Shown in pieces: positions 58,844 through 61,678 of a stretch of 64,000 nt of DNA. A model generated the notes under the pieces. It saw only the letters and a program-made list of their open reading frames with translations. It did not search any database and was not told where the DNA came from. Source of the DNA: Synergistetes bacterium HGW-Synergistetes-1 (GTDB lineage Bacteria > Synergistota > Synergistia > Synergistales > Synergistaceae); the NCBI GenBank assembly GCA_002839185.1, contig PGXO01000002.1, positions 1 to 64,000 of the forward strand, written 5' to 3'. Every line of letters starts with the position of its first letter. Within the stretch, counting starts at the first letter, position 1. Made by a program: the position numbers and the translations under genes.

Positions 58844-59764
58844 ATGCGCAAAAACATAATACTCAGTTATTCTCTGGCATTGCTTGCTATCTTTATATGG
58901 AGCGTAACCTTTGTCTCAACAAAAATTCTTCTTGATCATCTGTCACCTACGGAGATCCTTTTTTACCGATATGTGATAGCCTATCTTCTTTTCTTTGCTG
59001 CAAGCCCTAAGATCATTTGGCCGCTTAACTCACGTGACGAGGCAAAATTTGCCCTCGCAGGTTTTCTGGGCGTTACCCTCTATTTTCTCTGTGAAAATTT
59101 TGCCCTCTCGTTCAGCACAGCATCAAATGTCTCTCTGCTTGTCGCGACTGCTCCGATGCTGACCGGCCTGGTCTCACATTTTATGACTAAAAATGAAAGA
59201 ATTTCGGTCAACTTTATATACGGGTGTGTCTTCGGACTGGCAGGAGTCTTCCTTATAGTATTCAACGGTCATTTTGTCCTTAAACTTAACCCTGTAGGTG
59301 ACATACTGGCGATAATTGCTGCGCTCTCTTTTGCCTTCTACTCGATAATTATCAGGGACCTGAACAGGGCTGTCTATTCAGCAGTCGTGATAACAAGGAA
59401 AACCTTTTTTTATTCGCTTTTGTCTCTTATCCCGCTTCTTTTTACCCCGCTCTTTGAATGGGATCCAGGAGTACTTATGGAGAAGGAAGTTTTTGGGAAC
59501 CTTATCTTTCTCGGGGTATTTGCTTCTGCACTATGCTTTCTTCTCTGGAACAAAGTCATATGGGAACTTGGTGCAGTAAGGGCAAACAACCTGATATACC
59601 TTACTCCTCCGATAGCTATGCTCTCCGCTGCTGTTGTCCTTCACGAGAGGATCACCATCTTTGCCGCAGCTGGCGGACTGCTCATACTGCTTGGGGTCTA
59701 TCTTTCCCAAAGAAGAGTCCCGGGACCTGAGAAAGGATCCGGGACTGCGGAAGAAACTGAATAA
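58844..59764 (+). CDS. DMT superfamily (EamA) transporter
   Basis: The 306-residue protein has ten membrane segments in two EamA halves. FIWSVTFVSTKILLDHLSPTEILFYRY at the start and YLTPPIAMLSAAVVLHERIT late are typical. Members export amino acids or metabolites. The ribosome site is weak and distant (AAGGGAAAAG). It is divergent from the ABC ATPase and shares no operon. Confidence 0.87.
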   Translation: MRKNIILSYSLALLAIFIWSVTFVSTKILLDHLSPTEILFYRYVIAYLLFFAASPKIIWPLNSRDEAKFALAGFLGVTLYFLCENFALSFSTASNVSLLVATAPMLTGLVSHFMTKNERISVNFIYGCVFGLAGVFLIVFNGHFVLKLNPVGDILAIIAALSFAFYSIIIRDLNRAVYSAVVITRKTFFYSLLSLIPLLFTPLFEWDPGVLMEKEVFGNLIFLGVFASALCFLLWNKVIWELGAVRANNLIYLTPPIAMLSAAVVLHERITIFAAAGGLLILLGVYLSQRRVPGPEKGSGTAEETE

Positions 59765-59791: not shown

Positions 59792-60511
59792 TCATTCTTT
59801 TCTTTTATGAAGAACCTCGACCTCTACATGAGAAGGGATCACAGGCTCATCTTTTTCTCCCTTAAGGTGCTTTATCTCTTTTTTAAGCATGGCCATCTCT
59901 TCCTCCATCCTTAAGAGCTTTGCCCAGAGTTCTTCCGGGTTCATGCATGCCGCGCACTCGCTTACTCTTTTGCCGTCGATCTTTATTATTCTTGCCCTCA
60001 TTCCGGTAACTGTGGCGTTTTTAGGGACATCTTTAAGCACGGCGCTGTTGGCTCCTATCCTGGAATTTGCCCCGACCGTTATCGGTCCCAGTATTTTTGC
60101 TCCGCTGCCGACGAAAACGTTTGATTCGATGGTCGGATGCCTCTTCGCACCTTTCTCGTTGCCTGTCCCGCCCAGTGTAACTCCCTGATAGAGGGTAACG
60201 TTGTTGCCGACCTCTGCTGTCTCTCCGATAACCACTCCTGCTCCATGGTCAATAAAGAAACCCTTGCCGATCTTTGCTCCCGGGTGGATCTCGATCCCTG
60301 TCCACCATCTTACTATCAGCGAGAGGAAACGGGGCAGTACCGGGATGTGCATAGTTGAATGCATGAAGTGGAAGGCACGGTGGAATGTGATCGCAAGGAA
60401 CCCAGGGGTACAGAGGACGACCTCAAGTACTCCCCTTATACCTTTGGGTATCGCAGGATCGTTACGCATCGCAGCCTCAAAATCACTTTTGATATATTCC
60501 CAAGCTGACAT
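59792..60511 (-). CDS. cysE: Serine O-acetyltransferase
   Basis: The 239-residue protein has the helical N-terminus and a left-handed beta-helix of hexapeptide repeats (IHPGAKIGKGFFIDHGAGVVIGE, GVTLGGTG) with the catalytic His/Asp region. It makes O-acetylserine from serine and acetyl-CoA, the committed step of cysteine synthesis. A charged, Glu/Lys-rich tail follows; the C-terminal Ile that docks CysK is absent. It is preceded by a cysteine-codon attenuator (60561-60759), so its expression should rise when charged tRNA-Cys is scarce. Confidence 0.95.
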   Translation of the reverse strand: MSAWEYIKSDFEAAMRNDPAIPKGIRGVLEVVLCTPGFLAITFHRAFHFMHSTMHIPVLPRFLSLIVRWWTGIEIHPGAKIGKGFFIDHGAGVVIGETAEVGNNVTLYQGVTLGGTGNEKGAKRHPTIESNVFVGSGAKILGPITVGANSRIGANSAVLKDVPKNATVTGMRARIIKIDGKRVSECAACMNPEELWAKLLRMEEEMAMLKKEIKHLKGEKDEPVIPSHVEVEVLHKRKE

Positions 60512-60560: not shown

Positions 60561-60685
60561 AAGACCTGCCGGAGCAGGTCTTATGTTTCCTAATCAAATT
60601 TTTAAATACCTGCTGTTAAGTCTATGACCGCAACAGCCAACCGGGCAGCGCGGATCAACCTCCGAAGCCCTCCATACAACAGCAG
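60561..60685 (-). promoter_or_regulatory. Predicted cysteine-responsive transcription attenuator of cysE
   Basis: Arm 1 CTGCTGTT (60685-60678) pairs with arm 2 AACAGCAG (60617-60610), extended by ATAC/GTAT with one bulge. Arm 2 AGCAGGT (60614-60608) can instead pair with arm 3 ACCTGCT (60579-60573). Arm 3 otherwise pairs with arm 4 in the terminator AAGACCTGC-TCCG-GCAGGTCTT (60582-60561), followed by TTTTTT. Arm 1 coincides with three Cys codons of the leader ORF. A ribosome stalled there would mask arm 1, allow 2:3 and prevent termination. Confidence 0.85.
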
Positions 60686-60723
60686 TATACAGAAACAAAG
60701 TGAGAAGCCGCAATTTTTATCAT
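60655..60723 (-). CDS. cysE leader peptide with three consecutive cysteines
   Basis: A 22-codon ORF opens with ATG 60723 and stops with TGA 60657-60655. Codons 13-17 read Tyr-Cys-Cys-Cys-Met (TGC TGT TGT at 60684-60676). It has no ribosome site; the ATG lies where the promoter predicts the transcript to begin, so it would be read as leaderless mRNA. The Cys codons fall inside arm 1 of the attenuator, while the stop codon is about 20 bases past it, so a ribosome reaching the stop leaves arm 1 free to pair. Confidence 0.8.
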   Translation of the reverse strand: MIKIAASHFVSVYCCCMEGFGG

Positions 60724-60730
60724 GTGAGAT

Positions 60731-60759
60731 ATTTTAACAGGCATACCCAATTAATGCAA
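60731..60759 (-). promoter_or_regulatory. Promoter of the cysE leader
   Basis: On the minus strand TTGCAT (60759-60754) and TAAAAT (60736-60731) are 17 bases apart, with an extended -10 TG at the right place. The predicted start is 60724 or 60723, the A of the leader ATG. Confidence 0.75.
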
Positions 60760-60874: not shown

Positions 60875-61678
60875 ATGTCTCTGATCAATATTGGCACTTT
60901 CAACGTAAATTCTGTCAAAAGCAGGATCTCGGTACTTGAACACTTTCTCACTTCAGGAGGAGCCCCTGATATCTTATGCCTTCAGGAGACCAAATGCCGC
61001 GATGAGGAATTCCCCCGGGATTTTTTTAAGGGACTGGGCTACCATTGCCTCTATAAAGGAATGAAATCTTATAACGGTGTCGCTGTCATCTCGAAGATCG
61101 AACCTGACGAGGCTTCATTCGGACTTAACGACGGGGCTGTTGACCCGGAGAGGGAGGAATCGGAGAATGCCCGCGTGATACTGGCAAGATTCGGGAACCT
61201 GAACATCCTGAACACCTACATTCCTCAGGGCAAAGAGATAGACAATCCCGATTACCTGTATAAACTGAAGTTCTTTCATAGGGTGCGGGATCTGTTCGAA
61301 AGAAACTTCACTCCCAAAGATAAACTTTTATGGCTTGGCGACCTTAACGTTGCACCTACAGAACTCGATGTCGCCAATCCGAAAAATAAGACGAACCATG
61401 TATGCTTCCACAGTGATGTAAAAGATGCATTTGCCGGGGTCATGTCCTGGGGGTTAGTTGATATTTTTAGAAAACACCTGCCGGGAGATGGAGAGTATTC
61501 CTTCTGGGATTACAGGATAAAGGATGCGCTTTCAAGAAATATCGGCTGGAGGATAGACCATATAGTCGGTACTGAAGTTATGGCAGAAGCAAGCAGGAAG
61601 GTATGGGTCGAAAGATCTCTCAGGGCAATGGAACGCCCGTCAGACCACACTGCGGTCGTCGGTTCTTTTGAAGTTTAG
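60875..61678 (+). CDS. xthA: Exodeoxyribonuclease III
   Basis: This 267-residue exonuclease/endonuclease/phosphatase-fold enzyme has FNVNSVKSR, LQETKC (metal Glu), the WLGDLNVAPTELDV block, RIDHIVGT and ERPSDHTAVVG with the catalytic His. It repairs abasic sites and removes 3' blocks. ATG 60875 follows AGGGAGGG. The longer in-frame ORF from 60788 lies in the promoter region and is rejected. Confidence 0.95.
   Translation: MSLINIGTFNVNSVKSRISVLEHFLTSGGAPDILCLQETKCRDEEFPRDFFKGLGYHCLYKGMKSYNGVAVISKIEPDEASFGLNDGAVDPEREESENARVILARFGNLNILNTYIPQGKEIDNPDYLYKLKFFHRVRDLFERNFTPKDKLLWLGDLNVAPTELDVANPKNKTNHVCFHSDVKDAFAGVMSWGLVDIFRKHLPGDGEYSFWDYRIKDALSRNIGWRIDHIVGTEVMAEASRKVWVERSLRAMERPSDHTAVVGSFEV

Follow-up and report, generated by a model that had tools for sequence, protein, structure and literature searches.

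The region upstream of cysE in the window (the whole stretch of DNA analysed, 64,000 nucleotides) very probably holds a transcription attenuator of cysE that is mediated by the ribosome and responds to cysteine, as judged from sequence comparison. An earlier note, made from the window alone, had proposed such an element as its core claim, and comparison across genomes strongly supported it. The promoter, the 22-codon ORF, the Cys residues at codons 14-16, the terminator and the arm coordinates given there were all confirmed by direct reading, whereas the proposed arrangement of the RNA arms had to be revised.

Architecture of the cysE leader

The features of the locus, all on the minus strand, are as follows.

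60754..60759 (-): -35 element TTGCAT, read directly
60731..60736 (-): -10 element TAAAAT, ending 7 nt upstream of the leader ATG
60655..60723 (-): leader peptide ORF of 22 codons, MIKIAASHFVSVYCCCMEGFGG and stop, read directly; predicted leaderless
60676..60684 (-): Cys codons 14-16 (TGC TGT TGT), putative stall site; can also pair with arm D in the window's genus
60661..60670 (-): putative arm A (GGGCTTCGGA), partner B; placed by homology and the minimum free energy (MFE) fold
60643..60654 (-): arm B (TCCGCGCTGCCC), partners A or C; from the fold, masked folding, the swap test and covariation
60626..60638 (-): arm C (GGCTGTTGCGGTC), partners B or D; from genus comparison and the swap test
60608..60622 (-): arm D (GACTTAACAGCAGGT), 5' arm of the antiterminator, partners C, E or the Cys codons; from the swap test
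60574..60582 (-): arm E (AAGACCTGC), 5' arm of the terminator; from the terminator search, genus comparison and the swap test
60561..60569 (-): arm F (GCAGGTCTT), 3' arm of the terminator, followed by a T-run to about 60555; from the terminator search
59792..60511 (-): cysE, serine O-acetyltransferase, the regulated gene; from profile search

Direct reading of the minus strand gave a spacer of 17 nt between the -35 and -10 elements. The intrinsic terminator (60582-60561, minus strand) consists of a 9-bp stem, a UCCG loop and a T tail; shuffled versions of the region held a mean of 0.3 terminator-like sites. Three complementary pairs are visible in the window: CTGCTGTTG (60685-60677) with TAACAGCAG (60618-60610), AGCAGGT with ACCTGCT, and arms E and F of the terminator. 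Folding of the transcript, a check suggested in the earlier note, gave an MFE structure of -48.7 kcal/mol (z -1.58) that contains the Cys-codon arm and the terminator. Across the 64 kb, Cys-Cys-Cys is present in just two short ATG ORFs. Taken alone, however, the window sequence is only suggestive, and its significance rests on relatives.

The downstream gene product scored above the cut-off of the EpsC family NF041874, and slightly below that of TIGR01172 (208.6 bits against 210.65). Since cysK is encoded in the same genome as well, above its family cut-off, the two-step cysteine route is present. Convergent with cysE lies a DMT/EamA-type transporter gene (58844-59764, plus strand), whose NCBIfam matches include the O-acetylserine/cysteine exporter PRK11453 at 41.8 bits, far under the cut-off. 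A similar reading frame adjoins cysE in several congeners, and the transporter may export the product of the CysE step. On the other side, an exodeoxyribonuclease III gene (xth; 60875-61678, plus strand) is divergent from the cysE leader.

Conservation of the Cys run and terminator across Synergistota

We searched 188 Synergistota genomes for cysE and obtained 59 loci at E <= 1e-50. Conservation of the leader ORF and its Cys codons, on which the earlier note had staked its proposal, was found at 56 of these loci, with the rest of the peptide variable; 54 were recognized by pattern, and two more with a degenerate run (VCICRWILS) were included, the count covering paired Cys codons as well as runs. 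A T-tailed terminator lies between leader ORF and cysE in all 56. As a control, 75 cysE loci outside the phylum were examined: an ORF with Cys-Cys occurred in the same interval at two of them, both chance-like and unrelated, and none of the 75 had a similar leader before cysE. The leader was absent at three Synergistota loci (L023, L128 and L132). At L023, a promoter-like TTGACT..GATAAT near cysE stands in its place.

The leader peptides range from 10 (MNICCCGRTI) to 41 residues, and the Cys run is the one general feature of their coding sequence and the best conserved; exchanges between TGC and TGT, also within the window's genus, leave Cys in place. Outside Synergistaceae it is mostly TGT TGT TGT. 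Cys codons in leaders phylum-wide are TGT in 146 cases and TGC in 34, whereas TGC prevails in the large ORFs of the window (TGT 86, TGC 140); the preference for TGT in leaders possibly reflects slower decoding of this codon or a constraint on the RNA.

These data bear on two other explanations of the locus. The peptide itself might act, either through arrest of a poly-Cys nascent chain by another cue (redox, metal or tRNA modification) or as a free Cys-rich microprotein. Poly-Cys is chemically reactive, and arrest by another cue would presumably use the same RNA relay; yet sequence and length outside the Cys run are unconserved, unlike in known arrest peptides, and the target gene serves cysteine synthesis, so that we regard this explanation as very improbable. 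Still less probable, to the point of being hardly credible, is that a metabolite-binding riboswitch or a T-box sensing tRNA directly drives the terminator, with the short ORF being incidental. A structured leader with a terminator upstream of an amino acid biosynthesis gene would suit such a regulator, but no Rfam family reached its gathering score in the window, and at relaxed thresholds the leader and five relatives gave just low-scoring sRNA or leader matches. Conservation of the Cys run through synonymous changes also argues against an incidental ORF, as does the retention of its start signals (promoter spacing or Shine-Dalgarno sequence). The cysteine-responsive attenuator is the reading pursued below.

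A covariance model built for arms A to D and run against the 188 phylum genomes gave strong matches exclusively before cysE or a cysE duplicate. The duplicate, in one genome of another family, is a truncated cysE, and the further attenuator copy that precedes it is near-perfect (L171; G061 C4:169634-169715). Four weak matches (L172-L175) were not attenuator-like on inspection and were set aside; L173 falls where an oxidoreductase-like ORF begins. In the window's own genome, cysK and cysS are without such a leader, and inspection of the 400 nt upstream of the cysS match revealed no Cys-run ORF.

Co-variation of alternative arm pairs

We aligned 25 leaders outside Synergistaceae. Directly downstream of the Cys codons they share an arm plan in the order A (CGGTGGA), B (TCCACCGCGG), C (GGCYGCGG), a CATAG-like loop, D (GCCCGTTGCGGTCC) and E:F, with the stop codon within the A:B loop. 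Column covariation in these 25 leaders was compared with 500 shuffles and with slid controls. For A:B together with C:D, 84.5% of cells were paired, with a score of 0.286 compared to 0.215 in shuffles (0/500) and at most 0.095 in slid versions. For B:C, 94.8% were paired, with a score of 0.268 compared to 0.174 in shuffles (0/500). The two sets both need B and C and are therefore mutually exclusive.

A test of D:E in single leaders was not informative: the helix was not stronger than with shuffled linkers (p <= 0.05 in 6/56), because GC-rich linkers form good duplexes by chance. We therefore used an arm-swap test across genera, in which the arm of each of 26 representative leaders was paired with its own partner and with the partners of other leaders; for D, the windows were positioned manually using the conserved loop motif. 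Neighbouring arms co-varied throughout, which bears out the check on related cysE leaders that the earlier note had proposed: A:B (z -9.3, p 1e-5), C:D (z -6.2, p 1e-5), D:E (z -5.2, p 1e-5) and B:C (z -2.3, p 0.015), the last being the weakest of the four and weak in the window. None of the 11 other arm pairs, Cys:D included, was significant in these 26 leaders. The alternative pairings share arms, B taking part in A:B and B:C and D in C:D and D:E. Judged by this co-variation, the element is a six-arm relay with E:F as its terminator, forming a parity chain as in a his-type attenuator.

In some Synergistaceae genera (L013, L014, L019 and L020), the leader ORF spans arms A-C and ends at the CATAG block, which elsewhere is the C:D loop only; the position of the stop codon has moved and the RNA arms have stayed. 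We also considered the CATAG block as the stop codon of a shifted frame and rejected this by eye, as shifted frames disagree among congeners.

The earlier note had described four arms of trp type: the Cys codons serve as arm 1, and their partner, arm 2 (D here), has arm 3 (E here) as its alternative partner. This scheme has a basis in the window's genus: Cys:D forms 9 bp in the window, is part of the MFE fold and is largely kept in seven congeneric leaders, about as well as C:D, and its predicted energy in the window is similar (-13.5 kcal/mol, compared to -13.0 for C:D). However, Cys:D does not co-vary, neither over the 26 leaders (z 0.4, p 0.66) nor within Synergistaceae alone (z 0.0). It loses one pair in L004 through synonymous changes in the Cys codons, and one each in L008 and L009 through changes in D, and it is unneeded in leaders outside the window's group. 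C:D (GCTGTT/AACAGC plus GGTC/GACT in the window) is conserved among congeners; in L009, where D:E is weak, a C-G pair of C:D has become U-A by compensatory change. Because Cys:D is without co-variation in family or phylum, we judge C:D to be the ancestral and general element, and Cys:D is, by the same comparison, at most an addition in the window's genus. The four-arm scheme is thus unlikely; the arm that pairs with B lies just downstream of the Cys codons, and six arms were found, as in his attenuators.

Initiation of leader translation

One feature passed over in the earlier note is the probable leaderless start of the leader ORF, whose ATG stands 7 nt after the -10 element and is not preceded by a Shine-Dalgarno sequence. 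A -10-like hexamer was found 4-9 nt upstream of the leader ATG in all 26 Synergistaceae leaders, that of the window among them, at 6-7 nt in nearly all; the exceptions are L027 (9 nt) and L010, which was scored at 4 nt although a TAGAAT also ends 7 nt from its ATG. Most of these leaders have a TTGCCA-like -35 element at a spacing of about 17 nt, and complementarity to the anti-Shine-Dalgarno was near zero, with one exception (L026). None of the 41 large ORFs of the window has the leaderless promoter spacing of 6-7 nt. In contrast, most other families have a clear Shine-Dalgarno before the ATG (about -6.5 to -11 kcal/mol) and are without such a promoter, and two loci of another family, L117 and L123, appear leaderless. 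Because the -10 element adjoins the ATG and essentially no Shine-Dalgarno is present, we predict from promoter spacing that the leader mRNA of Synergistaceae starts at its AUG.

We lean towards a single homologous attenuator throughout the phylum whose mode of leader translation has switched, being SD-led in most families and leaderless in Synergistaceae and part of one other. The ribosome would then load on the nascent 5' end with RNA polymerase about 150 nt short of the terminator, and a leaderless ribosome would directly control an intrinsic terminator via the six-arm relay. If the prediction holds, one attenuator exists naturally in the phylum in an SD-led and a leaderless version, and comparing the two could tell whether leaderless initiation is quick and tight enough for coupling to RNA polymerase.

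A model for attenuation and its agreement with predicted folding

The model builds on what sequence comparison shows, namely conservation of the Cys codons, presence of the terminator and co-variation of A:B, B:C, C:D and D:E. We infer that, in the window's family, RNA polymerase initiates at or beside the leader AUG, and that a ribosome trails it, making the leader peptide. When charged tRNA-Cys is scarce, this ribosome would stall on the Cys run and mask arm A; B:C could then form, leaving D free for E, so that the E:F terminator would not form and cysE would be transcribed. With ample cysteine, the ribosome would reach the stop codon, covering or having passed A and B. C:D would then form (in the window's genus Cys:D might do so too), followed by E:F, and transcription in the cell would terminate before cysE.

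For comparison with the model, folding was predicted before F is made, with the RNA masked as far as the stall site, and the pairing of E with upstream RNA was read out. Averaged over 26 leaders, this pairing was 0.60 in the stalled state, 0.42 with the ribosome at the stop codon and 0.46 after release, and the rise in the stalled state was significant compared to both others. The window leader gave 0.83, 0.71 and 0.21, respectively, so that its stalled and stop states differ little. Over 56 leaders, pairing was higher in the stalled than in the stop state in 42 and higher than in the released state in 39, with some leaders opposite to expectation. Masked folding by hand gave the expected outcome in most leaders tried.

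Relation to known attenuators

Rfam 15 contains no family matching the cysE leader at gathering or relaxed thresholds. The earlier note held that an attenuator of this form is undescribed in this lineage, and this agrees with the mainly open-access literature searched, in which we found no description of such an attenuator in Synergistota or for cysE. The main-text passages available from an RNA screen of Thermovirga lienii mention no such motif (PMC6429828). Ribosome-mediated attenuation and Cys-codon leaders are already known; what is new, and well supported by the genome comparison, is the phylum-wide cysE version with a terminator and a six-arm relay. It adds a probable cysteine attenuator with an intrinsic terminator, placed at the step that commits the cell to making cysteine, in little-studied anaerobes that ferment amino acids.

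A related arrangement precedes cysS in Rhodobacterales, where uORFC-8-2 is a short ORF with tandem Cys codons at positions 14-15 and a U-tailed terminator stem, for which ribosome-mediated attenuation was proposed (PMC8632094). The likeness to the cysE leader lies in the short Cys-codon ORF and the U-tailed terminator; the target is, however, a cysteinyl-tRNA synthetase gene in Alphaproteobacteria, there are two prominent stems, the first of which holds the Cys codons, and a six-arm relay is not described there. In Actinobacteria, runs of Cys codons occur in short ORFs upstream of cysteine genes, and conserved terminator hairpins were not found (PMC1262725). Leaderless poly-Cys ORFs are described for mycobacteria, and cysteine-dependent attenuation is reported to have been shown in M. 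smegmatis (Canestrari 2020, as related in PMC9031893 and also cited in PMC13236596). These leaders resemble those of Synergistota in their Cys runs and in being short ORFs before cysteine genes, and their leaderless start is of the kind predicted for Synergistaceae. They control other genes (cys operons, cbs), whereas the cysE leader also carries an intrinsic terminator, and its relay arms co-vary.

As in the four-arm trpL attenuator, the position of the ribosome would select antiterminator or terminator; unlike trpL, the cysE leader has six arms, and pairing by its Cys codons is not conserved. In enterobacterial hisL, six segments A-F form either A:B, C:D and E:F or B:C and D:E, with a terminator and a stop codon near A:B. 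The cysE leader shares with the his operon attenuator a run of codons for the regulated amino acid, alternative pairings of six arms and an intrinsic terminator. It differs in the amino acid, cysteine rather than histidine, in the gene, cysE, in its occurrence in Synergistota and in the predicted leaderless start in Synergistaceae. The likeness is one of architecture, and it extends the his-type relay to cysteine.
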